This document shows positions 5,730 through 63,766 of a stretch of DNA of 64,000 nucleotides, piece after piece. Origin of the DNA: Fibrobacter sp. (GTDB lineage Bacteria > Fibrobacterota > Fibrobacteria > Fibrobacterales > Fibrobacteraceae). The stretch lies in contig JAFPWY010000007.1 in assembly GCA_017412605.1 (NCBI GenBank), positions 1 through 64,000 on the forward strand. Reading direction: 5' to 3'. The notes under the pieces were generated by a model. It saw only the letters and a list, made by a program, of their open reading frames with translations. It searched no databases and was not told the origin of the DNA. How positions within the stretch are numbered: the stretch's first letter is position 1; each line of letters opens with the position of its first letter. A program made the position numbers and the translations under genes.

Positions 5730-5763
5730 CAAAAAAAAGGGCCCGCCGAAGCGGAACCCTTTA
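5730..5763 (-). terminator. Rho-independent terminator of the GH5 gene
   Basis: Read on the minus strand, AAAGGG-TT-CCGC-TTCG-GCGG-G-CCCTTT is followed by a run of T residues (the A run at 5731-5738 on the plus strand). It lies 20 bases after the GH5 stop codon. Confidence 0.85.
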
Positions 5764-5782
5764 ATTTCTTTTTTTAGAAGGA

Positions 5783-8491
5783 TTAGCGAATCGTGACGCG
5801 AGCAGCCTTGACTTCGCTACCGCGGACGACGCGGACCACGTAGCTACCCTTGCTCAGCTTGTCGAGGGCAACAGTGTTGGCGCCAGCGTTCATGGAAGCG
5901 GAGATGTTCTCGACAACATGACCCATCATGTCGAACACCTGGACACGGACTGCGCCGGACTTGTCAAGGTTGACAGAGAGGTTGTTGCCCTGGACACCGA
6001 TCCTGATCGTGCTGGAGACGAGGCGAGCGCCCTTGATGGACGTGACAATGTTCACGCACTGCAGGTCATCGATGTAGAGGAAGTCCTTGGACGGCTGTTC
6101 ATTAGACTTAGCCCAGCCCAGAACTTCCCAAGCCATCTTCGTAATGGCGGCATAGTTCAGGTCCTTAGGTTCGCCCCAACCATCCTGAGTGAATTCTTCC
6201 AACTTGTAGGTGGCAGTCTTCCATTCATCGGAAGCAGAAGTCTTGACATAGTGATAGTCGTAGTCCGTCACGGAACCATCCTGAATCTTGAAGCTATGTG
6301 CAGCACCCTTATAGCGGTAAGAGAGAGCGGAGCACTGGCTCAGATCAATACCCTTAGTCGTGTCGGCGTTCGTGTTCAAGCCGAGGGCGACAAACGGCCT
6401 TTCTTCATAGGTACCCGGATTCACAACGATTCCCTTCAGGCCGACGAAGCCAGCAGTACCGTTGGACGGATCGTCCGTACCCGGGAACACCACGACATAA
6501 CCCGGAAGAGCCGGATCATAGACGTTCGTGATAGTGGAGAGACCACCCGGAACGCTGTCGTTATAGGCATACCAAGTACCGGTCGTCTTCAGGACTTCAT
6601 CACCGTCTTCAACATCGTCGATATCCACGACAACCACAGTCTGGGTCGTCGGAGCCGTTCCGCTGGAGGAGTTGGCAACCGGGCCGGGGCCAACGCCAGA
6701 AGAAGAAGAGCCAGCAGGAGACGAGGTCGGGCCAGCAATAGAAGAAGAGCTGGCCGGAGCTTCCAGAGTGGAAATAGCCGTGATAAAGGCGCCATTGCAG
6801 CGGATGTCATCCACATAGAGGTAATCGTAGAGCGGCTGGATTTCGGAAGCCGGGCGGTCAACAACGCCGTTCACTTCCCAAGCCAAGCGGTTGGCCTTGC
6901 CCAAGTTGCTCTTCAAATCAGTAATCTGGGGTTCAGACCAAGTGGTATGCTGCTGGAACATATCCGGGGTCAATTCAACAGTCTTCCATTCACCCGATGC
7001 TTCGGCATCGACAAAGTGGAAGTTGTAGTTGGTGATCGTGGAGAGTTCAACGCGGAAGTTATGAGCAGCACCCTTGTACTTGTAGGAAATGGAGGTGCAC
7101 TTTGCAAATTCAGTAAAGTTCGCGGTATCCTTCGTCAGGTTCAAGCCCATGGCGACGTACGGAGCCCACTTGTAAGAACCCTGGTCAATATAGATGCCTT
7201 CCATACCGGCCATGAACTTGGAATCATTGCCATCCTTAGCGGCAATAAGCACGTCGTAGGTTTCCTTGCCGAAGTCGTTGGTGAACTTCGGGTTCGAAAT
7301 CTTCGTCGAACCACGACCATCCTTGTCGTCATCGGAGTCGGCCCAAGCAGACCAGAAGCCTCCCGTGTAGGTGTAGCGGTCGCCGTCTTCCATATCGTCG
7401 ATGAGGTCCGTCGTGGCACCATCGGCAACACCGGTGGAGAATCCGTCATCACCCGTATCGGAACCAAGGTGGTTGCCAAGACCGCAATCGGAATAAGACG
7501 GGCTCTTGTTCATCCAGCCCTTCACCATGTTACCGGAGTTGGAGTACTTCAGACCCTGGTTCAGAGTAAGGGTCGTAAAGGCTGCGGACTGTTCGGCAAT
7601 AGCGGAGGCAGACCAGTTCGCCCAGGAAACACCTTTCTGGCTCATCCAGTCAACCCAAGCCTGGCTAGCAGACTGGTTCGGAGAACCGTTACCATCAGCA
7701 CTGACGGTACCCCATTCCGTAGCGAACACGGGGACACCAGAGTTCATAGCAGATTCAGCAGCGGAAGCATAGCCACCATCCTTGGAGTGCGTCGCAGCGT
7801 AGAAATGGAGCGTACAACCGTAGTTCTTGTCGCTGATGCCCGCACCAGCACATTTGTCCGGCTGGCTGGACCATCCCGGGCTACCCACGAGGATGAGGTT
7901 GTCGGAATGCTGACGAATCACCGGAATCACGGCGTCCGCATGGGTCTTGACAGAGCCCATGTCCGTTCCTTCCGGTTCGTTCCAAATTTCGAAAATCACG
8001 TTGTCGGTCTGACCGAATTCCTCGGCAGCCCAAGCAAAGAATTCCTTGGCATCGCTAGTGTAACCATTAGCACCTTCAGTATGCCAGTCAAGGATAATGT
8101 AGATGTCGTTTTCAACGGCGGCACGAACAAGCTTGCTAACCATGGCCTTCTGGTCGTTCTTACCACCCTTTGTATAGGAACGGCCATGGCTGTCGAACTT
8201 TTCGTCACCAACGCCGAGGGCGAAACGAAGCACTTCGATTCCCATGTCCTTCACCATGAGGCCCATTGCCTGGGCAGTATAGTACACCAAGGAACTATCT
8301 GCGCCCGAGCTCCAGAAGAGACTCATACCTCTGACCTGGACGGCCTTGTCTTTGTAAGCAGGGCAAGAACCGGACAGTTTTCCGCCGTTTGCCTTAAGTT
8401 CGCCGTAGGTGCTCACAGGACCAACCCTGCTGGGCTTTACAGCGAAAGCCGCCAAAGCGGCAAGCATCATCGTTATAAAAATTTTTTTCAT
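5783..8491 (-). CDS. Secreted GH5 cellulase with two beta-sandwich modules and C-terminal sorting tail
   Basis: A 902-residue secreted glycoside hydrolase family 5 enzyme, probably an endo-beta-1,4-glucanase. Residues 1-17 form a signal peptide. The catalytic domain (about 25-340) shows DWHTEG, the acid/base Glu172 in IWNEPEG and the nucleophile Glu259 in FATEWGTV. Two related modules of about 170 residues follow, each starting with a DD(M/V)EDGD motif and resembling CBM11-type beta-sandwiches. They are separated by a Ser/Pro/Gly linker of Fibrobacter style. The last 85 residues (VQVFDMMGHVV, LSKGSYVVRVV) look like a type IX secretion sorting domain. A LacI-type operator-like palindrome lies about 200 bp upstream. 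Confidence 0.92.
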   Translation of the reverse strand: MKKIFITMMLAALAAFAVKPSRVGPVSTYGELKANGGKLSGSCPAYKDKAVQVRGMSLFWSSGADSSLVYYTAQAMGLMVKDMGIEVLRFALGVGDEKFDSHGRSYTKGGKNDQKAMVSKLVRAAVENDIYIILDWHTEGANGYTSDAKEFFAWAAEEFGQTDNVIFEIWNEPEGTDMGSVKTHADAVIPVIRQHSDNLILVGSPGWSSQPDKCAGAGISDKNYGCTLHFYAATHSKDGGYASAAESAMNSGVPVFATEWGTVSADGNGSPNQSASQAWVDWMSQKGVSWANWSASAIAEQSAAFTTLTLNQGLKYSNSGNMVKGWMNKSPSYSDCGLGNHLGSDTGDDGFSTGVADGATTDLIDDMEDGDRYTYTGGFWSAWADSDDDKDGRGSTKISNPKFTNDFGKETYDVLIAAKDGNDSKFMAGMEGIYIDQGSYKWAPYVAMGLNLTKDTANFTEFAKCTSISYKYKGAAHNFRVELSTITNYNFHFVDAEASGEWKTVELTPDMFQQHTTWSEPQITDLKSNLGKANRLAWEVNGVVDRPASEIQPLYDYLYVDDIRCNGAFITAISTLEAPASSSSIAGPTSSPAGSSSSGVGPGPVANSSSGTAPTTQTVVVVDIDDVEDGDEVLKTTGTWYAYNDSVPGGLSTITNVYDPALPGYVVVFPGTDDPSNGTAGFVGLKGIVVNPGTYEERPFVALGLNTNADTTKGIDLSQCSALSYRYKGAAHSFKIQDGSVTDYDYHYVKTSASDEWKTATYKLEEFTQDGWGEPKDLNYAAITKMAWEVLGWAKSNEQPSKDFLYIDDLQCVNIVTSIKGARLVSSTIRIGVQGNNLSVNLDKSGAVRVQVFDMMGHVVENISASMNAGANTVALDKLSKGSYVVRVVRGSEVKAARVTIR

Positions 8492-8689
8492 AACATCCTT
8501 TCCTTCTAAAAAAGTGGATTCACCTATCCCAACCTAAAAATAGATATTATTTGCAAATCTTCCTTGTAATTTATTTTGATACATTTCAACGGGTTACGAC
8601 CAAATTGCCCAAAAAGGTTCAAAATCAAGAAAAACCTAATTTTTTTAACAATTTATCACCCAAAATCCGTGATTTGTGTCACCGTTACC

Positions 8690-50569: not shown

Positions 50570-51802
50570 ATGAATTTTAATACGACTTTGTTGCATAAGG
50601 ATTTTGGTAGTGATCGAAGTACGGGCTCCACGCTTACACCCATTTACCAAGTGAGCGCCTTTTCGCAGGAATCCGCGGAAAAACTTGAAGCCGTCTTTAA
50701 CAACAGGGCACCCGGTTTTGCCTACACGCGCATCGGGAACCCCACAACAGATTCTTTTGAACGCCGCATCGCATCGCTCGAAAAGGGCGTCGGTGCGGTG
50801 GCGTGTTCTTCGGGCATGGCCGCGGTGACCATCTCGCTCTTAAATATTCTGCAGGCGGGAGACGAAGTGATCGCAAGCGCCGGGCTTTTCGGCGGAACCA
50901 TCGACTTGTTCCGCGACCTGGAAGCGTTCGACATCAAGACCCGCTTTGTCACGGAAGTCACGGCCGAAACGGTGCGTTCCCAGCTGAACGAAAAAACGAA
51001 GGCAGTGTTCACCGAGCTTATCGGCAACCCGAAACTGAACGTGGTCGATTTGAAGAGTGTCGCGGACGTGGCGCATCAGGGAGGCGTCCCGTTCATTGTC
51101 GACAGTACGACAGCGACCCCCTACCTTGTGCGTCCCTTTGATTTTGGCGCCGACATCGTGGTGCATTCCTCTTCCAAGTACATCAACGGGAACGGAAGTG
51201 CCATCAGCGGCATCATCGTCGACAGCGGAAAATTCAAATGGGATTTCGCAAGGTACAAGGGCTTGGAAGAATACAAGCGCTTCGGCAAGTTCGCCTACAT
51301 CGCCAAGCTCCGCAACGGCATCTGGCGTAACGTAGGTTGTTGCGTGGCACCGGCAACGTCGTTCCTCAACTCGCTCGGCCTCGAAACGCTCGGGCTGCGT
51401 ATGGATCGCCTTTGCAGCAATGCGCTCCAGTTGGCTGAATTCTTGCAAGGCTTCGAAGGCATCACCGTCAACTACCCCGCTCTCAAGCAGAGCCCTTATT
51501 ACGATTTAGTGCAGAGCCAGTTTGACGGCAAGGGCGGCGCCATTCTTACGATTGACGCAGGGAGCAAGGAAAAAGCTTTCAAGCTGATCAACAACTTGAA
51601 ATATGCGACCATCGCAACCAACATCGGCGACTTACGCACGCTCGTGATTCACCCGGACAGCACCATCTTTGCGCACGGAACCAAGGAACAAAAAGAAAAC
51701 GCCGGCGTATTCGAAGGCACCATCCGCGTGTGCGTGGGCATCGAGGATATCGAAGACCTCAAGGAAGATTTCGAACAGGCAATCAAGAACATTGATTTGT
51801 AG
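50570..51802 (+). CDS. metY: O-acetylhomoserine sulfhydrylase (MetY-type PLP enzyme)
   Basis: A 410-residue Cys/Met-metabolism PLP enzyme. Key blocks are FAYTRIGNPTTDSFE, CSSGMAAVTISLL, SAGLFGGTIDLF and VDSTTATPYLVRP. The PLP-binding Lys is in VVHSSSKYINGNGS. A long second half (FAYIAKLRNGIWRNVGC, and ATNIGDLRTLVIHP) favours O-acetyl-L-homoserine sulfhydrylase over cystathionine gamma-synthase. In that role it makes homocysteine from sulfide or methionine from methanethiol. It is close to the nitrogenase-like cluster but separated by other genes. GGAG lies six bases before the ATG. Confidence 0.88.
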   Translation: MNFNTTLLHKDFGSDRSTGSTLTPIYQVSAFSQESAEKLEAVFNNRAPGFAYTRIGNPTTDSFERRIASLEKGVGAVACSSGMAAVTISLLNILQAGDEVIASAGLFGGTIDLFRDLEAFDIKTRFVTEVTAETVRSQLNEKTKAVFTELIGNPKLNVVDLKSVADVAHQGGVPFIVDSTTATPYLVRPFDFGADIVVHSSSKYINGNGSAISGIIVDSGKFKWDFARYKGLEEYKRFGKFAYIAKLRNGIWRNVGCCVAPATSFLNSLGLETLGLRMDRLCSNALQLAEFLQGFEGITVNYPALKQSPYYDLVQSQFDGKGGAILTIDAGSKEKAFKLINNLKYATIATNIGDLRTLVIHPDSTIFAHGTKEQKENAGVFEGTIRVCVGIEDIEDLKEDFEQAIKNIDL

Positions 51803-51858
51803 GTTACTATATTGTCATTGCGGGCGTAGAGACGCAATCTTATCCGAAGAGGTTTCAA

Positions 51859-52428
51859 ATGAACTTAACTCTTGAACGCGCAAAAGAAATCAACAAGAAC
51901 CACGTCACCGAAGAAACGCTCATCATCCATTCACTCAACGTCGCTTACGCCATGGGAGCCATGGCGAAGCATTTTGGCGAAGACATAGACCATTGGGAAG
52001 GCGTGGGTTACCTGCACGATTTCGACTACCAGGAATTCCCGGAAGAACACCTGCAGCATACCGAAAAGGAGCTGCTCGCCGAAGGGGTCTCCGAAGAAGA
52101 TGTCCGCGCAATCTTGGCACACGGTTTTGAAATCGTGAATGATGTGGAACCCAAGACGAACATGGAAAAGAGCCTGTTCACCGTCGACGAGCTCACAGGA
52201 ATCATCCAGGCCTGCGCAAGAATGCGCCCCAACGGAATCTTGGATCTGGAAGTAAAAAGTTTCGCGAAAAAATTCAAGGACAAGAAATTTGCCGCCAAGT
52301 GCAATCGCGACTACATTCTCAAGGGTTGTGCGCTACTCGGCATGGACGTGAAGGAAGTCGCCGAAATCTGCATCGAAGGCATGCGCGAACACGCCGCCGA
52401 AATCGGGCTGGCGGGAAATGCGGGATAA
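51859..52428 (+). CDS. HD-domain hydrolase
   Basis: A 189-residue protein with an HD metal-dependent phosphohydrolase fold. LIIHSLNVAYAMGAMAKHFG supplies the first His, and GYLHDFDYQEF is the HD motif (HD with an extra Asp). AILAHGFE supplies the next His and TVDELTGIIQACARMRP a further acidic pair. The nucleotide or other substrate is unknown. GAGGTTTCAA lies just upstream. It follows metY by 56 bases and may be co-transcribed. Confidence 0.85.
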   Translation: MNLTLERAKEINKNHVTEETLIIHSLNVAYAMGAMAKHFGEDIDHWEGVGYLHDFDYQEFPEEHLQHTEKELLAEGVSEEDVRAILAHGFEIVNDVEPKTNMEKSLFTVDELTGIIQACARMRPNGILDLEVKSFAKKFKDKKFAAKCNRDYILKGCALLGMDVKEVAEICIEGMREHAAEIGLAGNAG

Positions 52429-52455
52429 AGAACAATTACCGCAAAAAAATTATTC

Positions 52456-53169
52456 CTACAATCCACCATAATCGGACTCGCCGCTAGACAATAGTCGCCC
52501 TTTGTGCATGGTATACACACGATCGCCGTACTTAAAACCATGCGGGTCGTGTGTCGCCACAAGCACCGAAGTTCCCGACCGTGCAAGGTCAGCCAAAAGG
52601 TCAAAGACAATCTTGCCGTTAGCTTCGTCAAGATTGCTGGTAGGTTCGTCCGCAATGATGATATCAGGCTTGTTGACCAACGCCCGAACGATTGAAGCCC
52701 GCTTAAGTTCACCCCCCGAAAGTTCCGCAGGCATCTCATTCACTAAATGAGCAATGCCGAGAGTTTCAAGTTTCGAAATGATATCGATATCTGTCGTATC
52801 TGCCAAACCGTAAGCCTCGATTTTCTTGCCGTCACGAATGGCCCGCGGAAGTAGGATATTTTCGAGAACTGTAAAATGCGGCAAGAAAACAGATTCTTGA
52901 GGTACATAACCAATCTTGTCGTTCCGGATTGCAGAAATTTCGGCATCCGAAAGATTTGCAAAATCAAATCCATTAAAGATGACCGTGCCTTTCGTAGGGT
53001 GATTGATTCCCGCAAGCAAAGAAAGTAACGTACTTTTCCCGCTTCCGGATTCACCGATTACTACTGAGAAATCACCGGACCAGGCAAAGAATTCTACATC
53101 TTCTACAGCATTAAATTCGTTGCCGCGCCGCGTATAGGTCTTGTATAAATTAGAGACGTTCAGAATCAA
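52456..53169 (-). CDS. LolD/MacB-type ABC transporter ATPase
   Basis: A 237-residue ABC ATPase of the class that works with FtsX-like permeases. Walker A is GESGSGKST, Q-loop YVPQES, signature LSGGELKRASI, Walker B IIIADEPTSNLD and the H-loop VATHDPH. It overlaps the permease stop by four bases (ATGA), and gene order is DUF4418, permease, ATPase. It probably powers extrusion or periplasmic mechanical work. Confidence 0.9.
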   Translation of the reverse strand: MILNVSNLYKTYTRRGNEFNAVEDVEFFAWSGDFSVVIGESGSGKSTLLSLLAGINHPTKGTVIFNGFDFANLSDAEISAIRNDKIGYVPQESVFLPHFTVLENILLPRAIRDGKKIEAYGLADTTDIDIISKLETLGIAHLVNEMPAELSGGELKRASIVRALVNKPDIIIADEPTSNLDEANGKIVFDLLADLARSGTSVLVATHDPHGFKYGDRVYTMHKGRLLSSGESDYGGL

Positions 53170-54362
53170 TGTTCTACCTCCCTCAAAGCGACGTAGGCAT
53201 CGATTTCACTCACCTTGTTCGCCACACCGTAAACAACAAACGGGCCAATTAAATGGAGCAACAGAATGATAACGGCATACACGGCCGCAATTTCAGCATT
53301 CTCCGGAACAATGAACGGAATATCGATATGTTCGTCAAGCCAAATCTTAAAAGTGAAAAAGAAAACGCTCGAAAATAGCAAGCCAATGTAAGTCCCCACT
53401 GCCGAAACAAGCAAGGCCTCGCCAAGCACAAGGATTTTCAAGCGCCTGCGGGTAGAACCCAGAATACGAAGGAGCGCATATTCGCGCTTGCGTTCACGTG
53501 TCGAAAGCGAAAATGAAATCACAATTGCTGCAGCGGCGATAACCAAGAAAAATGCAACAACAATCCATACAACCACCTGCATGACATTTGCCGGTTTTTC
53601 AAGCCCCGAAAACAAATCCTTGCGGCTAAAAATCTGCAAGCCGTCAAAACGGGCGTAAATTTCGCGACTGAGGCGTTCTGTATCGGAATCCGGGCGCAAC
53701 TTAATCAAAATGCTTGAATAGCCCACCGAACTAGAATCAAATCGCACTCCTTTGGTTTTAGCTGCACCACGAATGTCCGCAAGTGTCGAGACATCTACAA
53801 AAACGGCCTGGTCAAGCCCGTTGCCAATCGGTTCAAGCTTTGCGGCCACTGGATATTCACGGTCAAAGAATTTGATCGTCTTTTTTTCTCCCACGCTGAT
53901 TTCACTACCGACAACGATAGTTCCCTTTACCAACTTGTCTTCAAAAACTTCACGAATCCACGGTTGAATCACAAAGTCAGATGATGGGTCAAATCCGACA
54001 ATCCAGACTTTCTGATCGCAGCAGCTAGAACTGAGCGACGTCAAAAAATACTGCGGAGTCGCCACTTCGACATCGTCAAGTCCGCGTATAAATTCCAGCG
54101 AGCCCTGTGGCAAGTACGCATACTTGAAATCGCCCTGCAAAAGAATCGTCTGGTCGTCAACTTCGCTTCCCTGCGGAAAGACAATCACGTCGGCCCCGAG
54201 GCGCGACGATAAACGGTCCAAGCCCTTTGAAAGCGAAAGCGACAAAAGTCCGCCTACCAGAAGAACCGAAGCAAGCAAGGCGATCAACAACGAAAGCCCC
54301 AAACTCCTGAACGGGTTTCGCAGGTAATTTTCAACAATCAAATTAACATCAGTCTTGTTCAT
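53166..54362 (-). CDS. FtsX-like ABC transporter permease
   Basis: A 398-residue four-helix MacB/FtsX-type permease. TM1 (LGLSLLIALLASVLLVGGLLSL) is followed by a periplasmic MacB_PCD-like domain of about 200 residues and three C-terminal helices with STRERKREYALLRILGSTRRR, the FtsX-family cytosolic loop. The periplasmic domain carries a vicinal Cys pair in SLSSSCCDQKVW, which could bind metal or form a redox pair. It overlaps the DUF4418 gene by 14 bases. Confidence 0.88.
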   Translation of the reverse strand: MNKTDVNLIVENYLRNPFRSLGLSLLIALLASVLLVGGLLSLSLSKGLDRLSSRLGADVIVFPQGSEVDDQTILLQGDFKYAYLPQGSLEFIRGLDDVEVATPQYFLTSLSSSCCDQKVWIVGFDPSSDFVIQPWIREVFEDKLVKGTIVVGSEISVGEKKTIKFFDREYPVAAKLEPIGNGLDQAVFVDVSTLADIRGAAKTKGVRFDSSSVGYSSILIKLRPDSDTERLSREIYARFDGLQIFSRKDLFSGLEKPANVMQVVVWIVVAFFLVIAAAAIVISFSLSTRERKREYALLRILGSTRRRLKILVLGEALLVSAVGTYIGLLFSSVFFFTFKIWLDEHIDIPFIVPENAEIAAVYAVIILLLHLIGPFVVYGVANKVSEIDAYVALREVEH

Positions 54363-54759
54363 TTCGCCTCTTTAATTTCAAAAGAACAAAGTTCACCACC
54401 GAAAACAAGACGATTGCAGCACCAGTCAAGGCAAACACCGGAGCAGTCACCGCATGGCATGCCATATGGACATGCGGGCACGTCCCAACAATAATGGTCG
54501 GCACCAGCGAAACAAATACACCTATAGCAGTCGCTACCATAGAAAGAACCAGGTGAGCATTTTTCTTGATAATTGCAGCCCCCACAACAGCAGTCACCAG
54601 CAAGGCTATTCCAAGAACGGCTTCAATGCTTGCAGATGTTCCACAACGCATTCTAATGCCTCCCATAGATCCGCAAACCGGTAAAATCACCTGGGCAAAA
54701 GCAACCAGCAATACACCGAACACGAGATTTGCTATTACGAACAATTTATATTGATCCAT
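54349..54759 (-). CDS. DUF4418 membrane protein
   Basis: A 136-residue protein with four hydrophobic helices matching the DUF4418 family. Conserved residues are in PVCGSMGGIRMRCGTS and VGTCPHVHMACHAV, both with Cys pairs and His. Such genes usually sit next to an FtsX-like permease and LolD-like ATPase, as here. The function is unknown; the Cys/His content hints at metal or redox chemistry in the membrane. It begins 33 bases after the LysR stop codon. Confidence 0.85.
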   Translation of the reverse strand: MDQYKLFVIANLVFGVLLVAFAQVILPVCGSMGGIRMRCGTSASIEAVLGIALLVTAVVGAAIIKKNAHLVLSMVATAIGVFVSLVPTIIVGTCPHVHMACHAVTAPVFALTGAAIVLFSVVNFVLLKLKRRNEQD

Positions 54760-54792
54760 ATAACTCTCCTATTTTTTTTGTATAAATGACGG

Positions 54793-55758
54793 CTACGCAA
54801 TAAGGGAATCGCGCCCACTCGTATAAGCCTTCAAGTATTCTTCCATTTCGCGGATATAGATGCGGCAAATGGTACTCAACATGAAGTTTTTCTTGACAAT
54901 GTAACCGATTTCCATATTACGGTCGTTTTCACCGTTATCGTCCTTGAAGGGAACGGCAACATAATCGGATCCATTTATTTCTTCGCTGATAATTCCAGAA
55001 CAAAGCGTGTAGCCGTTAAGCCCCACCATAAAATTCAGCATGGTAGCACGGTCATTCGCCTTGATCGTCTTGTGATATTCATTTGTACTCAATATTTCTT
55101 CGGCGAAATAGTAATTTCCGCTTTCGCCCTGTTCAAACGAAAGGCACGGGTACTGCGAAAGATCTTCAAGAGTGACATACTGCTTGGATGCTAGGGGATT
55201 ATTTTTCCACATGTAGGCGTAAGCGTTGCAGACAATCAACTTCTGAAAAACGAGATCGTTTTCCTTGAGTAGATAAGTAATGTATTTCCGGTTAAAATCA
55301 CTCAGATAGATAATTCCGATTTCACTGCGAAGGCTTATCACATCATCGATGACTTCTTTAGTCTTTGTTTCACGGAGCGCAAAGTCGTAATCATCGATAT
55401 TGTAGCTTTTGACCATATTCATAAAGGACTTGACAGCAAAGGAATAGTGTTGCGTCGAAACAGCGAATCTTTTCTTCTTCTGTTCTTCCTTGCCATAGCG
55501 CTTTACAACCGATTTGAAATGGTTTATGAGCTCATTTGCGCGAGCTACAAATTCCTCGCCTTCGGGCGTGAGCGTCACGCCGCGATTCGTGCGGTTGAAA
55601 ATGGTAATGCCAATTTCTTTTTCCAGATCCTGGATTGCCGTTGTCAGCGATGGCTGCGATATGAACAGCATCTCGGCAGCCTTGCTGAACGAGCCCGTAT
55701 TGGCAATCCCGACGGCATAACGCAATTGCTGAAAAGTCAAAGTCTTTTTATAGTCCAT
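54793..55758 (-). CDS. LysR-family transcriptional regulator
   Basis: A 321-residue LTTR. The N-terminal wHTH is FQQLRYAVGIANTGSFSKAA to FNRTNRGVTLTPEGEEF. The effector domain runs from about residue 85 and differs from the typical LTTR consensus. The start at 55758 gives the usual N-terminus; an earlier in-frame Met adds eight unconserved residues. It lies between the nifB-nifX pair and the DUF4418 ABC module, all in one direction, so it is the most likely regulator of the nitrogenase-like cluster. The effector is unknown. Confidence 0.9.
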   Translation of the reverse strand: MDYKKTLTFQQLRYAVGIANTGSFSKAAEMLFISQPSLTTAIQDLEKEIGITIFNRTNRGVTLTPEGEEFVARANELINHFKSVVKRYGKEEQKKKRFAVSTQHYSFAVKSFMNMVKSYNIDDYDFALRETKTKEVIDDVISLRSEIGIIYLSDFNRKYITYLLKENDLVFQKLIVCNAYAYMWKNNPLASKQYVTLEDLSQYPCLSFEQGESGNYYFAEEILSTNEYHKTIKANDRATMLNFMVGLNGYTLCSGIISEEINGSDYVAVPFKDDNGENDRNMEIGYIVKKNFMLSTICRIYIREMEEYLKAYTSGRDSLIA

Positions 55759-55842
55759 GTAAAGCACCCCAATAGCGGGCAAAAAATATAGAACGCGTTT
55801 GTCGCTGCGTCCAATACATTTTTTTTAGGACTTTCTATAGAT

Positions 55843-56250
55843 TTAGACTATGCTTTCCCTTATTTTTAGGGCTCTTTGAGCAATCTTATTGCGATATAAG
55901 TTTATTTTAGCAATTGCGTCAGCAACCGGGAGACCGATATCGAACGCACGGACATTAAAGCGCGCCAAAGCCTGGATTGCCTGCGGGCCAATCTGCGAGC
56001 AAAGAACGTAATCCAGGTCGGATAGATTCCTTGCTGCCGTAAGCATCGACAAATGTTCCATATCGCGCTGGCCACAAGTGCCGTCCCCGCACGTTCCGTC
56101 ACAATGTTCCGGCTTTACGCGAACTTCGATCTTTTCAAATTTTCCGCTCGCATCATCGACTTCATAAATATCAAATGCGGCAGCATGCCCAAAGTGAACA
56201 TTGACATTCACGCCATCGTTTGTGGCTACTGCGATTTTATATTTAGCCAT
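55843..56250 (-). CDS. NifX/NafY-like cofactor-binding protein
   Basis: A 135-residue protein of the dinitrogenase iron-molybdenum-cofactor biosynthesis family. NVHFGHAAAFDIYEV is the diagnostic block, and DYVLCSQIGPQAIQALARFNVRAFD follows. A Cys-rich insert, EHCDGTCGDGTCG (Cys50, 54, 59), is present. In nitrogenase systems this domain carries NifB-co or is fused to NifB. Its ATG overlaps the nifB stop by eight bases, so NifB and its carrier are coupled here. Confidence 0.9.
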   Translation of the reverse strand: MAKYKIAVATNDGVNVNVHFGHAAAFDIYEVDDASGKFEKIEVRVKPEHCDGTCGDGTCGQRDMEHLSMLTAARNLSDLDYVLCSQIGPQAIQALARFNVRAFDIGLPVADAIAKINLYRNKIAQRALKIRESIV

Positions 56251-57115
56251 GAGAGAAGGTCTCCTTTACACGGATACGGTCCATGTAGATTTGCGCACCG
56301 ATATCGTAAACGCCGGGAACGCCTACGGCATCGGCACGGCAGTGGGAGCAATGTTTGAAGACGTTAATAAATACGCCCGCTTCTTCCTGAGCGATTGCAA
56401 GCGCCTTTGCACTCGGGGCGGGCAAATCCTTGAATCCGTTTTGCGGAATGAGCGGAATGATATTGTAGATGATTGCACCGGCTTCGCGGACGGTGGCTGC
56501 AACGTCTTCGATGTGCTTGTCATTGATACCCGGGCAAAGCACGGTATTTACCTTCACGAGTGTCCCGCTGGCGGCAACCTTGCGGATACCTTCCAGTTGG
56601 TTGTGAATAAGGATTTTGGCCGCTTCGACACCTGTATAGGTCTTGCCGTGGTAAAAAATCCTAGCGTTGATCATCGCCTCGATTTCAGGATCCACGGCAT
56701 TCACCGTGACGGTAAGGGTGTCAATTCCAACTTCAATGACTTCATCCGCCCTGTCGTTGAGCAAGAGCCCGTTAGTACTCATGCAACGGATAAGGTTCGG
56801 GAATTCCTTCTTGACAAGGCGGAACGTGTCCAGCGCAAAAGGGGTCGCCAGCGTATCGCCCGGCCCCGCAATACCCACGGTAGTAAGTTCCGGTACGTAT
56901 TCGAGTGCCTTGCGGATGTATCCGCAGGCTTCTTCAGGCTTGATAACCTTGCTCGTATTCCCGGGAACCTGCGCATCTTCGTTGATACGGCGGTCACAAA
57001 AACGGCATTCGATATTACATCCCGGAGCAACCGGCAAGTGAATGCGTCCTTTTCTGTTCTTGCACGCACCAAAGCATGGGTGTTCTCTAAAAACAGTTTC
57101 TTGATTTATTGCCAT
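56243..57115 (-). CDS. nifB: Nitrogenase cofactor biosynthesis radical SAM protein NifB
   Basis: A 290-residue radical SAM enzyme that builds the [Fe8S9C] cofactor core. HPCFGACKN is the conserved N-terminal block. The SAM-cluster motif is APGCNIECRFCDRR (Cx3Cx2C). AGPGDTLATPFALDTF, CMSTNGLLL and VTVNAVDPEI are typical. The C-terminal CSHCRADAVG provides ligands for the accessory clusters. The NifX domain is not fused but encoded by the next gene. The start at 57115 is preferred over one nine codons upstream (57142), but neither has a strong ribosome-binding site. It is divergent from the NifHDK-like operon. Confidence 0.94.
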   Translation of the reverse strand: MAINQETVFREHPCFGACKNRKGRIHLPVAPGCNIECRFCDRRINEDAQVPGNTSKVIKPEEACGYIRKALEYVPELTTVGIAGPGDTLATPFALDTFRLVKKEFPNLIRCMSTNGLLLNDRADEVIEVGIDTLTVTVNAVDPEIEAMINARIFYHGKTYTGVEAAKILIHNQLEGIRKVAASGTLVKVNTVLCPGINDKHIEDVAATVREAGAIIYNIIPLIPQNGFKDLPAPSAKALAIAQEEAGVFINVFKHCSHCRADAVGVPGVYDIGAQIYMDRIRVKETFSHG

Positions 57116-57308
57116 AGTCTCTGCTGAAAAATTGTTGAACATTTACCTAGCGTTCCGCAGCTTATCAGTTTTTTCTATGAAACAAGTGGGGTAGAATTTA
57201 AAAAGCCGAATAGCAAAATCCAAGACGAATCAGATGGCAAAAAAGACAAAAAAAACTTTTTTTGCGCTAGGTATAGATTGGAGCCAAATCCGACTATAGG
57301 GAGCATTT

Positions 57309-58287
<979 letters not shown>

Positions 58288-58298
58288 TGTGAGGGTTC

Positions 58299-59897
58299 AT
58301 GGCCAAGACTAATATTAATTTGAACATGACCTCAGTCGAAAACCGCGAGTATCGACTGGGTACGATTATCGGCTGGGACGGCAAGGCGAGCGACCTGATT
58401 AAGGAATCGGCCTATGACGAACGCAGCGCGAAAAAGCATGGCGGCTGCGCAGGCAAGGGCGTGGGTTGCAAACTTTGCGAATTGAGCTCTCCGCTGAACC
58501 AAGAGACTATGTGCTCTAATGCGATTGTGCAGTGCCAGGTGGGAAACCTTACGGACTGCGCCCTGATTGACCATTCTCCTATCGGTTGCAGTGGCGAAAA
58601 CTCCAAGTTTAACCTTTCTATGCATAACGGACTTCGCCGTCGCGGGAAGCCCCTGCAGAACACGCTGAACATCAGTACGAACCTGAAAGAAAAGGACATG
58701 GTCTTTGGCGCTTCTGAAAAGCTCCGCCAGACTATCCTTGACGCAAAGGAACGCTTTAATCCCAAGGCGATCTTCATTGGCATGGCGTGTGCAACCGCTA
58801 TTATCGGCGAAGACATTGATTCCATTGCCGAAGAAATGGAACCTGAGGTTGGCGTGCCTATCATTCCGCTGCATTGCGAAGGTTTCCGTTCCAAGCACTG
58901 GTCTACGGGTTTCGATGTCGCTTTCCATGGCGTTCTTCGCCAGATTGTGGAGCGCCATCCGACCAAGAAACAGAATGACTTGCTCAATATCGTTGCCCTT
59001 TGGGGTTCGGACTATTTCTCCGAAATGCTTGCTCCGCTTGGGCTGCGCGTAAACTATCTTCTGGATACCGCCTCTTTCGAAGAAATTCGCCAGGCCTCCG
59101 AAGCGGTCGCTACCGCTACCTTCTGCGATACGTTGGGCGGCTACATGGCGACGGCTCTTGAAGAATCTTTCGGCGTTCCGCAGATTGACGCTCCGCAGCC
59201 TTACGGAATCAAGGGAACCGATGCTTGGCTTCGCGCTATCGCAAAGGTTGTCGGCAAAGAAAAAGAAGCTGAAGAATATATCGAAAGCGAACACAAGCGC
59301 ATTGCTCCGAAGCTTGCCGAACTTCGCGAATTTTTCAAGGGCAAGAATGGTATCGTGATGACGGGTTCTGCATACGCACACGGCCTTATCAGTGTACTTT
59401 CGGAACTGGGAATCGGCCACGATGCAGCACTCGTGTTCCACCACGACCCCGTTTACGACGGTGGTGGCGAGCATCAGGACACCTTGAAGGAGTTGGTGGA
59501 AACTTACGGCGATATTCCGCACTATACCGTAAGTAAGACCCGCGCCTTCCAGCTTCCGCAGCTTTTGAAGCGCGCCAAGACGGACTTCTTGCTCATTCGT
59601 CATCCGGGTCTCGCCTCTGTCGCGGGCCATCTCGGATTCCCGACGCTTACCATGGGCGACGAGCATATTCCGGTGGGCTATCAGGGCATTCTCCGCATCG
59701 GCGAAATGCTGAAGGGCGTGATTGCTCGTACCAAGTTTAACCAGGTGCTCAAACGCAACGTGAAACTTCCGTATTCCGATTGGTGGCTTGCTCAGGACGA
59801 TCCGTTCTACCTGACGCACCATCCGGAAGCACTTGAGGATTTGCCGGAACCGAGAAATCTCAAGTTCAGCAAAGAAACTGCATCGAAAAGCGCATAA
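58299..59897 (+). CDS. NifD-like catalytic subunit of a nitrogenase-like reductase
   Basis: A 532-residue subunit. P-cluster-type Cys positions align as Cys72, Cys97 (DHSPIGCSG) and Cys164 (GMACATAIIGEDI). Cofactor ligands align as Cys276 (TATFCDTLGGYM) and His456 (GDEHIPVGYQG). The CEGFR block is kept at 193-197, but the positions of NifD Gln191 and His195 are Trp201 and Phe205, and NifD Arg96 is Asn105. An additional N-terminal cluster, GGCAGKGVGCKLC (Cys50, 57, 60), is not part of classical NifD. So it should hold both metal clusters but not reduce N2 in the known way. The closest functional idea is MarD of methylthio-alkane reductase (inference). Confidence 0.93.
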   Translation: MAKTNINLNMTSVENREYRLGTIIGWDGKASDLIKESAYDERSAKKHGGCAGKGVGCKLCELSSPLNQETMCSNAIVQCQVGNLTDCALIDHSPIGCSGENSKFNLSMHNGLRRRGKPLQNTLNISTNLKEKDMVFGASEKLRQTILDAKERFNPKAIFIGMACATAIIGEDIDSIAEEMEPEVGVPIIPLHCEGFRSKHWSTGFDVAFHGVLRQIVERHPTKKQNDLLNIVALWGSDYFSEMLAPLGLRVNYLLDTASFEEIRQASEAVATATFCDTLGGYMATALEESFGVPQIDAPQPYGIKGTDAWLRAIAKVVGKEKEAEEYIESEHKRIAPKLAELREFFKGKNGIVMTGSAYAHGLISVLSELGIGHDAALVFHHDPVYDGGGEHQDTLKELVETYGDIPHYTVSKTRAFQLPQLLKRAKTDFLLIRHPGLASVAGHLGFPTLTMGDEHIPVGYQGILRIGEMLKGVIARTKFNQVLKRNVKLPYSDWWLAQDDPFYLTHHPEALEDLPEPRNLKFSKETASKSA

Positions 59898-59914
59898 CAA
59901 GGGGATTTTCAACA

Positions 59915-61261
59915 ATGGCTACAATTCAAAAGAAAAAAAGTAATTCTATTTCAGACCCCCGATACGCTTGTGCGGTTGGTGCATCTCATACTGTTGTCGC
60001 TATTAAGGGTGCAGTTCCTATTGCCAACTGCTCTCCGGGTTGCCAGCTCAAGCAAACGGCATTCCTCACGTTCGAAAACGGTTTCCAGGGCAGCATTTAC
60101 GCCGGTGCCGGTAACATGCCGAGCGCAAACTCTACCGAAAACGACATCGTTTTTGGCGGCATCAAGACTTTGGATCAGTTGATCAAATCGACGCTCAAGG
60201 TGTTCGATGGCGACCTCTATGTCGTTCTCACCGGTTGCGTGGGCGGCCTTATCGGCGATGACGTTTCGAGCCTGGTTCGCGGCTATCGCGATTTGGGTTA
60301 CCCGATTGTATCTGTCGATACCGCTGGTTTCAAGGGCAACAACCTTTTCGGTCACGAAGAAGTCGTAAACGCAATCGTCGACCAGTTCGTAGGCGATTAC
60401 AGCGGCGAACGCAAAAAGGGTCTGGTGAATCTTTGGTTCGAAACGCCCTACTACAACCAGAACTGGCGCGGAGACTATCAGGAAATCGCCCGCATACTGC
60501 GCGGCGCAGGCTTTGAAGTCAACGTGCTGTTTGGACCCGAAAATAACGGTGTTTCGGACTGGTTGCGCATTCCCGAGGCCCAGTTTAACTTGGTTGTTTC
60601 GCCTTGGGTTGGCGTTCGAAACGCAGAACACCTCCAGGAAAAATACGGTCAGCCATTCCTGCATATTCCTGAAATTCCTCTAGGTGCCGAAGCGACTAGC
60701 GAATTTATCCGTAAAGTTGTCGAATTTGCCGGAATCGACAAGGAACAGAGCGAAAAGTTCATTAAGGAAGAAAACAGAATCTATTACTACTATCTGGAAC
60801 ACTTCTCTGAATTCTTCGCCGAATACTGGTTCGGTATGCCCAGCGAATTTGCAATCACTGCAGATTCCGCCTACACGCTTGCCTACACCAAGTTCCTTGT
60901 GGACCAAATCGGTCTTATTCCGCGCAAGGCAATCATCAGTGACGACCCTCCGCAGAAATTCCGCGAACAAATCGAAAACGCCTTCCATAACATTAGCGAA
61001 GGTGTCGATGTTGAGGTGGAATTCGAAGAAGATGGCTATCTGATTGAAAAATCTATTAAGGATGTGAATTTCTCTTCTGGAAAGCCTTTGATTCTCGCCT
61101 CTTCGTGGGAAATCAATATTGCCAACGAAAAGAATGCGCTACTTTTCGAAATTACTCCGCCTTCCAGCGAAACATTGATTATCAATCGTAGTTTCGTCGG
61201 TTACAAGGGCGCGCTGAATCTGCTCGAAAAGATTTATAGCACTTCTGTCGGTGGCAAATAA
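59915..61261 (+). CDS. NifK-like subunit of a nitrogenase-like reductase
   Basis: A 448-residue partner of the NifD-like protein. P-cluster ligands are seen as Cys19 (YACAVGA), Cys43 (CSPGC, with Cys39 as an extra) and Cys108 (LTGCVGGLIGDDV). The long N-terminal extension of Mo-nitrogenase NifK is absent. PIVSVDTAGFKGNNLFGHE corresponds to the NifK block after the third ligand. AAGGGGATTTTCAACA precedes the ATG. It ends the HDK gene trio; nifE and nifN homologues are not found in the window. Confidence 0.93.
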   Translation: MATIQKKKSNSISDPRYACAVGASHTVVAIKGAVPIANCSPGCQLKQTAFLTFENGFQGSIYAGAGNMPSANSTENDIVFGGIKTLDQLIKSTLKVFDGDLYVVLTGCVGGLIGDDVSSLVRGYRDLGYPIVSVDTAGFKGNNLFGHEEVVNAIVDQFVGDYSGERKKGLVNLWFETPYYNQNWRGDYQEIARILRGAGFEVNVLFGPENNGVSDWLRIPEAQFNLVVSPWVGVRNAEHLQEKYGQPFLHIPEIPLGAEATSEFIRKVVEFAGIDKEQSEKFIKEENRIYYYYLEHFSEFFAEYWFGMPSEFAITADSAYTLAYTKFLVDQIGLIPRKAIISDDPPQKFREQIENAFHNISEGVDVEVEFEEDGYLIEKSIKDVNFSSGKPLILASSWEINIANEKNALLFEITPPSSETLIINRSFVGYKGALNLLEKIYSTSVGGK

Positions 61262-61298
61262 ACAAATAAGTCAAACAAAATAGAACGAGGATACCTAT

Positions 61299-61340
61299 AT
61301 GTGTAGCACTTGTACTTTGGCTCAGGGCATTCTCCAATAA
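61299..61340 (+). CDS. 13-codon Cys-x2-Cys mini-ORF, candidate leader peptide
   Basis: ATG at 61299 follows GAGGATACCTAT. It encodes MCSTCTLAQGILQ and ends TAA, directly before a chain of RNA hairpins and 160 bases before the porin gene. Two Cys in the first five residues would let ribosome pausing report cysteine supply. The open frame and ribosome-binding site are seen; translation and the sensing role are inference. Confidence 0.45.
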   Translation: MCSTCTLAQGILQ

Positions 61341-61480
61341 GTCATCTGCATTTTGCTAGATGACATGTTGGGAAAGCCACGCACGAGCAATTCCCAGTAA
61401 ATAAGCCGATGCCTTTTTAGGCATTCGGCATTTTCCCAAACGCTCGCAGAATTTTATTCTGCGTGGTTATCCAACAATTA
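61341..61480 (+). ncRNA. Candidate structured RNA before the porin/ABC operon
   Basis: A hairpin GTCATCT/AGATGAC (61341-61364) comes first. Then a nested set follows: TGTTGG (61366-61371) with CCAACA (61471-61476), CCACGCA (61377-61383) with TGCGTGG (61460-61466), and CGAGC (61384-61388) with GCTCG (61442-61446). These enclose the hairpin GCCGATGCC/GGCATTCGGC (61405-61429). A competing perfect hairpin CGCAGAAT/ATTCTGCG (61445-61463) would break two of these stems. No known riboswitch consensus was recognised and no T tract follows. It may be a switch, an attenuator or a processing site in the long operon transcript. Confidence 0.5.
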
Positions 61481-61500
61481 TCAAAATAAGGAGATTTTCA

Positions 61501-62715
61501 ATGAATCTCACAAAAAACACCACAGCTAAAATCATTCTCGCCTCTGCAATCGCAGCATTCTCCGCAGAGTCCATTTCAGTCACCACGAAATCCGGCGTAA
61601 CCGCAACTCTCTACGGTTTTGCATCTCTTAACGCCGCCTACGAAGACTCGAAAAGCAACAACGGAAACTTCGCCAACTTCGTTGCGGCTTCGGACATCAC
61701 CAATGAAAACGACGGCGGTTGGCATTTGACCCCCAACCTGACTCGAATCGGGGTCAATCTTTCGAGCGGTGACGATTCGACATACTTCAAGGCAAACGGT
61801 AAGGTCGAAGTGGACTTCTACGGGGGTGGTTCCGCCAACAATCCCAATCCGCGCCTCCGTCACGGCTATGGCGAAGTTTCTTTCGGCAAGACTGGCTTCT
61901 CCATTTTGGGCGGTCAAACTTGGGACGTGATTTCTCCGTTGGTGACGCCGACGCTCAATGCCGGCGTTCTCAATAATTCCGGCGATGCGGGCCTGCGCAG
62001 GGCCCAGCTGAGACTCACCGAGAAATTCCCCGTTGCAGGAGGTTCCCTGGACATTGCCGCAGCAGTTGTCCGCACCATCGGCGAAAACCAGCCGTACAAC
62101 ACGACTTCCGCCTCAGAAACCGGTACCGATGCAGACATTCCCACATTCCAGGGACGCATCGGCATTGCAGTTCCCCTGTGGGTAAAAGACAAGAAGTTCG
62201 GCCTCGGCGTTTCGGGCCATTACGGCAAGGAAGAAATCGACCTGGATGACACTGGCGAAGCCAAGGACATTCCCACATGGTCTGCCAACGTAGATTTGAA
62301 CCTTCCCATCACTGGCACGATCGCCGTTCTTGGCGAAGGATTCATCGGCGAAAACCTGGATACATACGCCGCAGGCATCGGACGCGGTTTTACAGCCAAT
62401 GCCAACGATCCTGAAAGCGTAAAAAGCATCGAGGCCTACGGCGGATGGATTGCCTTGCAGGCCAAGTTGATTCAGAAATTGGCCGTTAATGCAGGTGCAG
62501 GCATTGACAAACTGGACCGAGACGACATCGAAACCGTTGGCGGCCGCGAACAGAACATTTCCGTTTTCGCAAACGCGACCTACAACTTAACCGACGCCTT
62601 CTCGCTCGGGTTTGAATACCTTCACATCCAAACGGATTACCTGACTGCCGGCACCCAGAAAGTAAAGGAAGCCGACCTGAACCGTTATCAACTTTCCGCA
62701 ACCTACGGATTCTAA
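61501..62715 (+). CDS. DcaP-like outer-membrane porin
   Basis: A 404-residue beta-barrel protein with an N-terminal signal (KIILASAIAAFSAES) and C-terminal Phe (LSATYGF). TATLYGFASLNAAYEDS, GKVEVDFYGG, PRLRHGYGEVSF and ILGGQTWDV match the DcaP-like porin family, whose members pass small organic acids. AAGGAGATTTTCA precedes the start. Its position between the HDK genes and the ABC importer suggests it admits the substrate or a related small compound. Substrate specificity is not readable from sequence. Confidence 0.83.
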   Translation: MNLTKNTTAKIILASAIAAFSAESISVTTKSGVTATLYGFASLNAAYEDSKSNNGNFANFVAASDITNENDGGWHLTPNLTRIGVNLSSGDDSTYFKANGKVEVDFYGGGSANNPNPRLRHGYGEVSFGKTGFSILGGQTWDVISPLVTPTLNAGVLNNSGDAGLRRAQLRLTEKFPVAGGSLDIAAAVVRTIGENQPYNTTSASETGTDADIPTFQGRIGIAVPLWVKDKKFGLGVSGHYGKEEIDLDDTGEAKDIPTWSANVDLNLPITGTIAVLGEGFIGENLDTYAAGIGRGFTANANDPESVKSIEAYGGWIALQAKLIQKLAVNAGAGIDKLDRDDIETVGGREQNISVFANATYNLTDAFSLGFEYLHIQTDYLTAGTQKVKEADLNRYQLSATYGF

Positions 62716-62731
62716 CAAAGGGAGATTTACA

Positions 62732-63766
62732 ATGAACCAGACAACAAATAAAAAACATAGCCGGATTGCTTTGGCATTCCTTTTCACTCTCGTCTGTGCC
62801 GCATCTGCTTTTGCCGCAGACAAGATTTCCATCGGTTACCTCTCTTCTACGGGTCAGGGAAAATTCTTCATCGCTAAAGATGCCGGCATCTTCGAGAAGA
62901 ACGGACTTGACGTGACCCTAGTGGAATTCTCGAATTCCGGTGACGGCATCGCCGCGGTCCGCGCGGGCAAACTCGACGCCGGTGCATTCGGTTCTCTCGC
63001 TCCGCTCATCCACATTGCACAAGGCGCAGACATCCGCGTCATTGGCGGTATCATGGGTGGCGACCAGGCTGTCATTACGCGCAAGGAAAACGCTGGCTCC
63101 GTCAAGAAGTTGAGCGATCTCAAGGGCAAGAAAATCGCGACGATTCGCTTGGGTACTGCCGATGCAATCGTTCGTGGCGGCCTCAAGAAAGAAGGCATCG
63201 ACTGGCACAAAGACGTGGCCATCGTGGAACTCAAGAATCCGCCTGCAGTAATCGAAGCTGTAAAGAACGGCAGCGTGTACGCAGGCGTCACTTGGGGTCC
63301 GCACGACCTCCGCGCCGAAGAAGCGGGCCTTTCCGTGGTGCTTCGCAGTAAGGACATCAATCCGGGCCACATCTGCTGCCGCCTGATTGCCTCGCTCCGC
63401 AAGATTGACGGTCGCGAAGATGTTTATAAGCGCTTGGTCAAGTCGCTAATCGAAGCCGAAGAACTGGTGCAAAATGACCACAAGAAGAGCGTGGAAATTA
63501 TTGCCAAGTGGATCAAGCTCGACACAGCCCTTGTCAACAAGGCGTTCTACAGCGGTCATGTCACGCAAGATACCGATCCGAACGTGAAGGGCGTCGAATT
63601 CTTCTGGGATTTCTTGAAGGATGCTGAATTCATCAAGTCCGACAAGAAGGTCGCTGAATATGTGCGTACCGACTTCTACCAGAAAGCCATCGCAGAACTC
63701 CGCAAGCAAAAGCCGAATTCCGAGTTCTACGCGAACGCTGAAAAAATATTCAAGTCCAGAAACTAG
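62732..63766 (+). CDS. SsuA/NMT1-like periplasmic substrate-binding protein
   Basis: A 344-residue binding protein of the nitrate/sulfonate/taurine (SsuA/TauA/NMT1) superfamily. The signal peptide ends AASAFAA. DKISIGYLSSTGQGKFFIAKDAGIFEKNGL is split across typical SsuA strand-helix elements; EFSNSGDGIAAVRAGKLDAG, LKGKKIATIRLGTAD and AGVTWGPHDLRAEEAG follow. A Cys pair, GHICCRL, is in the second lobe. GGGAGATTTACA precedes the ATG. It works with the ATPase 12 bases downstream; the permease is presumably beyond the window. Confidence 0.88.
   Translation: MNQTTNKKHSRIALAFLFTLVCAASAFAADKISIGYLSSTGQGKFFIAKDAGIFEKNGLDVTLVEFSNSGDGIAAVRAGKLDAGAFGSLAPLIHIAQGADIRVIGGIMGGDQAVITRKENAGSVKKLSDLKGKKIATIRLGTADAIVRGGLKKEGIDWHKDVAIVELKNPPAVIEAVKNGSVYAGVTWGPHDLRAEEAGLSVVLRSKDINPGHICCRLIASLRKIDGREDVYKRLVKSLIEAEELVQNDHKKSVEIIAKWIKLDTALVNKAFYSGHVTQDTDPNVKGVEFFWDFLKDAEFIKSDKKVAEYVRTDFYQKAIAELRKQKPNSEFYANAEKIFKSRN

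Follow-up and report, generated by a model that had tools for sequence, protein, structure and literature searches.

The nif-like genes of a Fibrobacter genome probably encode a methylthio-alkane reductase rather than a nitrogenase

The closest described system is the methylthio-alkane reductase (MAR) of R. rubrum, MarBHDK (PDB 9FMG and 9D9U). Lago-Maciel et al. (2025, PMC12552129) showed that, in its catalytic subunit RrMarD, Cys66, Cys91, and Cys158 bind the P-cluster, that Cys270 and His429 bind an Fe8S9C cluster containing neither molybdenum nor homocitrate, and that Trp195 and Phe199 stand in for Gln191 and His195 of NifD. They also found that the cofactor is rotated by about 48 degrees, and that Trp195, His194, and His375 lie 3.9–4.7 Å from the sulfide S2B. 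The substrates of the R. rubrum enzyme are dimethyl sulfide (DMS), ethyl methyl sulfide, and methylthio-ethanol; N2 is not reduced (PMC12552129). As regards Fibrobacter, a phylogenomic study listed nifHDK and inferred its lateral gain, with only four nif genes in F. succinogenes, where nitrogen fixation was not demonstrated (PMC4704652). A survey of 2012 found nitrogenase-like proteins in the Fibrobacteres and described a group that has the Cys275 ligand but lacks His442 (PMC3464626). No report tying MAR to Fibrobacter or to the rumen was found in the open literature, subscription papers being outside the scope of this search.

The DNA analyzed here is a stretch of 64,000 nucleotides (the window) from a Fibrobacter genome of 3.53 Mb that is 99.5% complete. 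The open reading frame at 58299..59897 (forward strand) has exactly the boundaries given in the initial annotation, and it encodes 532 amino acids from an ATG start. In a phmmer search of PDB chains, the top match of its product was R. rubrum MarD (9FMG_A, E 2.1e-185; 9D9U_A, E 6.5e-185), with 276 identical residues over the 498 aligned (55%). The next gene, at 59915..61261 (forward strand), encodes the beta subunit MarK, which matches MarK of 9d9u_C and 9fmg at E 2.8e-152, such that both subunits have a full-length, close match to a characterized counterpart. True nitrogenases come next, at E 1.1e-35 and weaker for MarD and at E 3e-16 for MarK. The product of 58299..59897 is therefore, with a probability of about 0.93, the MarD subunit of a MAR, that is, a nitrogenase relative that would cut methyl-sulfur compounds rather than fix nitrogen, a function attributed to it from the characterized enzyme with which it shares 55% of its residues. 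Identity, residue mapping, operon content, and the lack of NifEN come from the present analysis, while the cluster types, ligands, and reaction are taken from the work on R. rubrum.

An AlphaFold model of the MarD chain alone, made with a 22-sequence alignment, has a mean pLDDT of 78. Its closest folds are 9fmg_A, which is the best (Foldseek probability 1.00, TMt 0.94), and 9d9u. The pLDDT falls below 50 at residues 45–73 and 196–201, and, owing to the low confidence at 196–201, the predicted model is no independent test of the pocket.

The evidence on the active site is thus based on residue mapping. The initial annotation had proposed that Trp201 and Phe205 occupy the positions of NifD Gln191 and His195, and this proposal is borne out: residues 193–205, CEGFRSKHWSTGF, align without gaps both to RrMarD and to the block CEGYKGVSQSxGHH of NifD homologues in eight further genomes of this phylum. 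Since these eight NifD proteins keep the Gln and the His, the alignment is supported, and the Trp/Phe swap marks the MAR lineage and not the phylum. The cysteines that had been read as conserved ligands also hold, with Cys72, Cys97, Cys164, and Cys276 mapping to Cys66, Cys91, Cys158, and Cys270 of RrMarD, the P-cluster and Fe1 ligands of the solved structure. On the MarK side, C19, C43, and C108 align with the P-cluster residues C32, C56, and C121 of RrMarK, which completes the set of six P-cluster cysteines across the two subunits. More generally, the window MarD is identical to RrMarD at all the positions that the structure paper names: RrMarD C66, C73, Q74, C91, C158, H194, W195, F199, C270, H375, R428, and H429 correspond to C72, C79, Q80, C97, C164, H200, W201, F205, C276, H381, R434, and H435, respectively (12 of 12).

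The second cofactor ligand had been assigned to His456. When mapped onto the published description of 9FMG, this residue corresponds to RrMarD His450, whereas the published Fe8 ligand, His429, is His435 here. His456 was rejected as the Fe8 ligand on this basis, and in an alignment of 22 sequences, among them divergent paralogues and with identities as low as 32%, Trp201, Phe205, Cys276, Arg434, and His435 are invariant while His456 varies. The pairing of Asn105 with NifD Arg96 depends on the alignment: it follows from the ungapped offset from Cys97 (C+8), but HMMER sets a three-residue gap just before Asn105.

It had also been suggested that a hydrophobic aromatic pocket over the cofactor would suit a thioether rather than N2. 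The conclusion was broadly correct, in that the closest enzyme with a solved structure is a MAR, which has thioether substrates and does not reduce N2, but the structural reasoning was only partly right. The description of the pocket is too simple, as His200 and His381 correspond to the histidines that flank S2B in the solved MAR, where only the Trp is near enough to S2B for a hydrogen bond.

The Arg428-His429 pair on loop I has been proposed as a MAR hallmark, and it is present in the window protein as Arg434-His435. The pair is also found in paralogues only 32–38% identical to MarD and may thus not be confined to MAR. A signature of 19 positions is shared unchanged by 115 of the 128 rows aligned, but, as some rows are near-duplicates or further copies of the window locus, these are not 115 independent cases; judged from these rows, the Trp/Phe swap is far beyond chance. 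The residue swaps in the Fibrobacter MarD are real, yet they are already published for the MAR family.

Could these genes nevertheless encode a genuine nitrogenase of a divergent kind, whether Mo or Fe-only, and so fix N2, in line with the earlier reading of the Fibrobacter “nif genes”? The Fe protein lends itself to this reading, since marH (57442..58287, forward strand), which encodes an Fe protein of the NifH type with putative 4Fe-4S cysteines C98 and C133, scores 456.6 bits with TIGR01287 (nifH), above the equivalog cut-off of 394.35, and nifHDK is indeed listed for F. succinogenes (PMC4704652). However, the D and K proteins fall far under every nitrogenase equivalog cut-off in NCBIfam, the equivalents of Gln191 and His195 are Trp201 and Phe205, and the cofactor histidine lies in the MAR-type loop and not at the position of NifD His442. 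The R. rubrum enzyme, with identical residues, does not reduce N2. Compared with NifDK of Mo-nitrogenase, MarDK shares the fold, the P-cluster cysteines, the Cys275-equivalent ligand, and the Fe protein partner, but differs in lacking Gln191 and His195, in carrying the cofactor histidine on another loop, and in having only about 22% identity in the structural match.

The content of the genome points the same way. Family searches found only two PF00148 proteins, which are MarD and MarK, together with one strong NifH match, one NifB, and one Nitro_FeMo-Co protein; these searches of the 99.5% complete genome found neither NifEN nor any other DK pair. Without NifEN, on which FeMoco assembly depends, the genome has no usual FeMoco route, and this gene content as a whole excludes a Mo-nitrogenase and leads one to expect an Fe8S9C cofactor. 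A true nitrogenase was consequently rejected, for want of NifEN and of the Gln/His equivalents, and that reading is extremely improbable. Another explanation would be that the pair is not a reductase but a NifEN-like scaffold for cofactor assembly; NifE is the best NCBIfam match of MarD, though far below the cut-off, and NifEN also carries an Fe8S9C cluster. Yet the genome has no NifDK to receive a cofactor from such a scaffold, the identity of 55% is to an enzyme with demonstrated reductase activity, and both the Arg434-His435 pair and the full set of P-cluster cysteines match MarD, which makes a scaffold scarcely credible.

The MAR reading accords with the surrounding genes. Upstream, on the reverse strand, lies marB (56243..57142), encoding a NifB-like radical SAM enzyme, core only, presumed to act in Fe8S9C assembly; it reaches 265 bits with TIGR01290 over residues 18–277, under the cut-off of 343.65, and matches the NifB structures 7jma, 7jmb, and 7bi7 at E 1e-82. 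It is followed on the same strand by a gene for a Nitro_FeMo-Co domain protein resembling NifX and the NifB C-terminus (55843..56250; PF02579, 55 bits; matching TIGR01290 positions 329–437), a probable cofactor carrier, and by a LysR-family gene (54793..55782, reverse strand; PF00126), which is a candidate regulator of the cluster and has a weak likeness to CysB-family models among many LysR models. Downstream of marK, on the forward strand, are a probable outer-membrane porin gene (61501..62715), called from the appearance of its sequence and its position, with no Pfam or NCBIfam match, and a gene for an SsuA-family ABC substrate-binding protein (62732..63766; TIGR01728, 142.7 bits, under the cut-off of 163.5). 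In Fibrobacter loci, the porin gene keeps its place between marK and the ABC importer genes. The genes just past the end of the window, as read in locus L038, encode an ATPase, a permease, and then an LCM-family methyltransferase; this last, leucine carboxyl methyltransferase-like gene (L038:3359-4228) recurs near both DK clusters in Fibrobacter.

The Fibrobacter locus thus resembles that of R. rubrum in all the P-cluster and Fe8S9C ligands, in all the published pocket residues, and in the linked NifB-like maturase and Fe protein genes. It differs in that the NifB-like gene is on the opposite strand and is accompanied by a separate NifX-like gene, in having the porin, SsuA-type importer, and LCM methyltransferase genes downstream, and in its Fe protein, which is closer to NifH of Clostridium pasteurianum (1cp2, 444 bits) than to RrMarH (9fmg_D, 292 bits). 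Because MarH passes the NifH equivalog cut-off, nifH-based gut surveys would miscount MAR carriers as nitrogen fixers.

By analogy with R. rubrum, MarH, as an ATP-driven Fe protein, would deliver electrons to the P-cluster, located where MarD and MarK meet, which would relay them to the Fe8S9C cofactor; this cofactor would be made by the adjacent NifB-like enzyme without molybdenum or homocitrate and held by Cys276 and His435 of MarD. Trp201, His200, and His381 on the S2B side would bind the methyl-sulfide and donate protons, and the space filled in nitrogenase by Gln191, His195, and Val70 would be reshaped by Phe205 and Cys79/Gln80. Cutting of the C-S bond would give methanethiol and a small hydrocarbon. 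That the Fibrobacter enzyme has this C-S bond reduction chemistry of the R. rubrum MAR is, we infer, very probable. The methanethiol could in turn be converted to methionine by an O-acetylhomoserine sulfhydrylase-like PLP enzyme encoded at 50570..51802 (forward strand; PF01053; TIGR01326, 425 bits, under the cut-off of 495), and the linked porin and ABC importer may take up the substrate.

In R. rubrum, methylthio-ethanol is made from methylthioadenosine (MTA). Three family models, for MTA/SAH nucleosidase, MTA phosphorylase, and MtnA, each of which matches most control genomes, found no match in the Fibrobacter genome, although a divergent enzyme could escape them. The genome therefore has no evident source of methylthio-ethanol, which is a further difference from the R. 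rubrum system, and the natural substrate may not be the same; an external sulfur source is more likely. One variant of the main reading, compatible with it, is that a MAR-type enzyme with the same clusters acts naturally on an imported organosulfur compound other than DMS, ethyl methyl sulfide, or methylthio-ethanol. Along with the unmatched MTA salvage genes, the linkage of the SsuA-type importer, porin, and LCM-family methyltransferase genes to marHDK in Fibrobacter would fit this idea. All the published pocket residues are nonetheless identical to those of RrMarD, so the known substrates should fit, and volatile sulfides cross membranes unaided, so the importer may take up a different source of sulfur while being regulated together with mar. 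The variant is consequently possible but rather doubtful. Equally tentative is the wider suggestion that, in fiber degraders of several phyla, the rumen mar operon draws on scavenged, imported organosulfur compounds to make methionine, with methane, ethane, or ethylene given off as a by-product, its substrate being unlike that of R. rubrum as Fibrobacter has no MTA route among those models.

Within the phylum, 60 of the 168 genomes have a match at E 1e-10. In the genus of the window, 37 genomes match, and each listed match can be assigned from its identity and position to MarD, to MarK, or to a second DK pair; none looks like a true nitrogenase. The Fibrobacter “nif genes” of the two earlier studies (PMC4704652, PMC3464626) are probably mar genes. 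A scan of species genomes found close mar loci in Bacteroidales, including Segatella baroniae (71–83%), Ruminococcus flavefaciens (about 70%), Succinivibrio dextrinosolvens (67%), and clostridia (55–66%), and the marBHDK linkage recurs across phyla along with sulfur-related neighbors. A search of plasmids gave distant relatives only. In a midpoint-rooted tree of the best 80 loci, the Fibrobacter MarD rows form one clade within the Bacteroidota rows (support 100/100). This nesting among rumen Bacteroidota suggests a transfer between phyla in the rumen.

What is new here is modest, namely this nesting, the NifH-type Fe protein, the combination of an organosulfur-type importer with no MTA route found by the three models, and the probable identity of the “nif genes” with mar. 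The main use is one of re-annotation, in which the doubted minimal nitrogenase of Fibrobacter would become a MAR and the window genome is left with no nitrogenase. A predicted hydrocarbon-releasing C-S reductase is thereby placed in major rumen fiber degraders, which would link them to the sulfur and trace-gas metabolism of the rumen.

Comparison of related loci gave several further observations. The window MarD is 100% identical to that of L051, a Fibrobacter MAG, which, along with the identities to L060, places the window genome in Fibrobacter. With respect to L060, another Fibrobacter MAG, the flanking genes of 50570-63766 and MarH are 98–100% identical, yet MarD is 96% and MarK 93% identical; with respect to L052, MarDK is 98% identical and the NifX-like gene 79%. 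This mosaic suggests recombination inside the mar cluster. In Clostridium aminobutyricum (L130:7959-12479), a single MarK gene has a MarD gene on either side, one of them sharing 56% and the other 54% identity with the MarD of the window.

The second DK pair, which shares about 33% identity with MarD, is present in at least 11 Fibrobacteraceae genomes and absent from that of the window. It is found in L039:3621-13071 (DK, for example, at 5743-8533) and in L040, L041, L047, L049, and L050. In L039, it is flanked by a NifH-NifB pair on one side and, on the other, by the porin/importer end of marDK. As there is only one NifH and one NifB in this stretch of L039, it appears to share them with marDK. 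It keeps the P-cluster cysteines, Cys276, the Arg434-His435 pair, Trp201, and Phe205 and differs at Cys79 (Asp or Ser), His200 (Ile), and His382 (Tyr). Its neighbors include PLP sulfur enzymes, an LCM methyltransferase, and a TusA/rhodanese/DsrE-like protein. This second pair is a more novel lead than the window MarD. Finally, another genome of the phylum carries a more distant DK family (L042:7598-10542 and L043:6818-9738). It keeps the P-cluster cysteines, Cys276, and His435, while Trp201 is replaced by Pro or Val, Phe205 by Tyr, and Arg434 by Gly, so the loop I histidine is more widespread than MAR.
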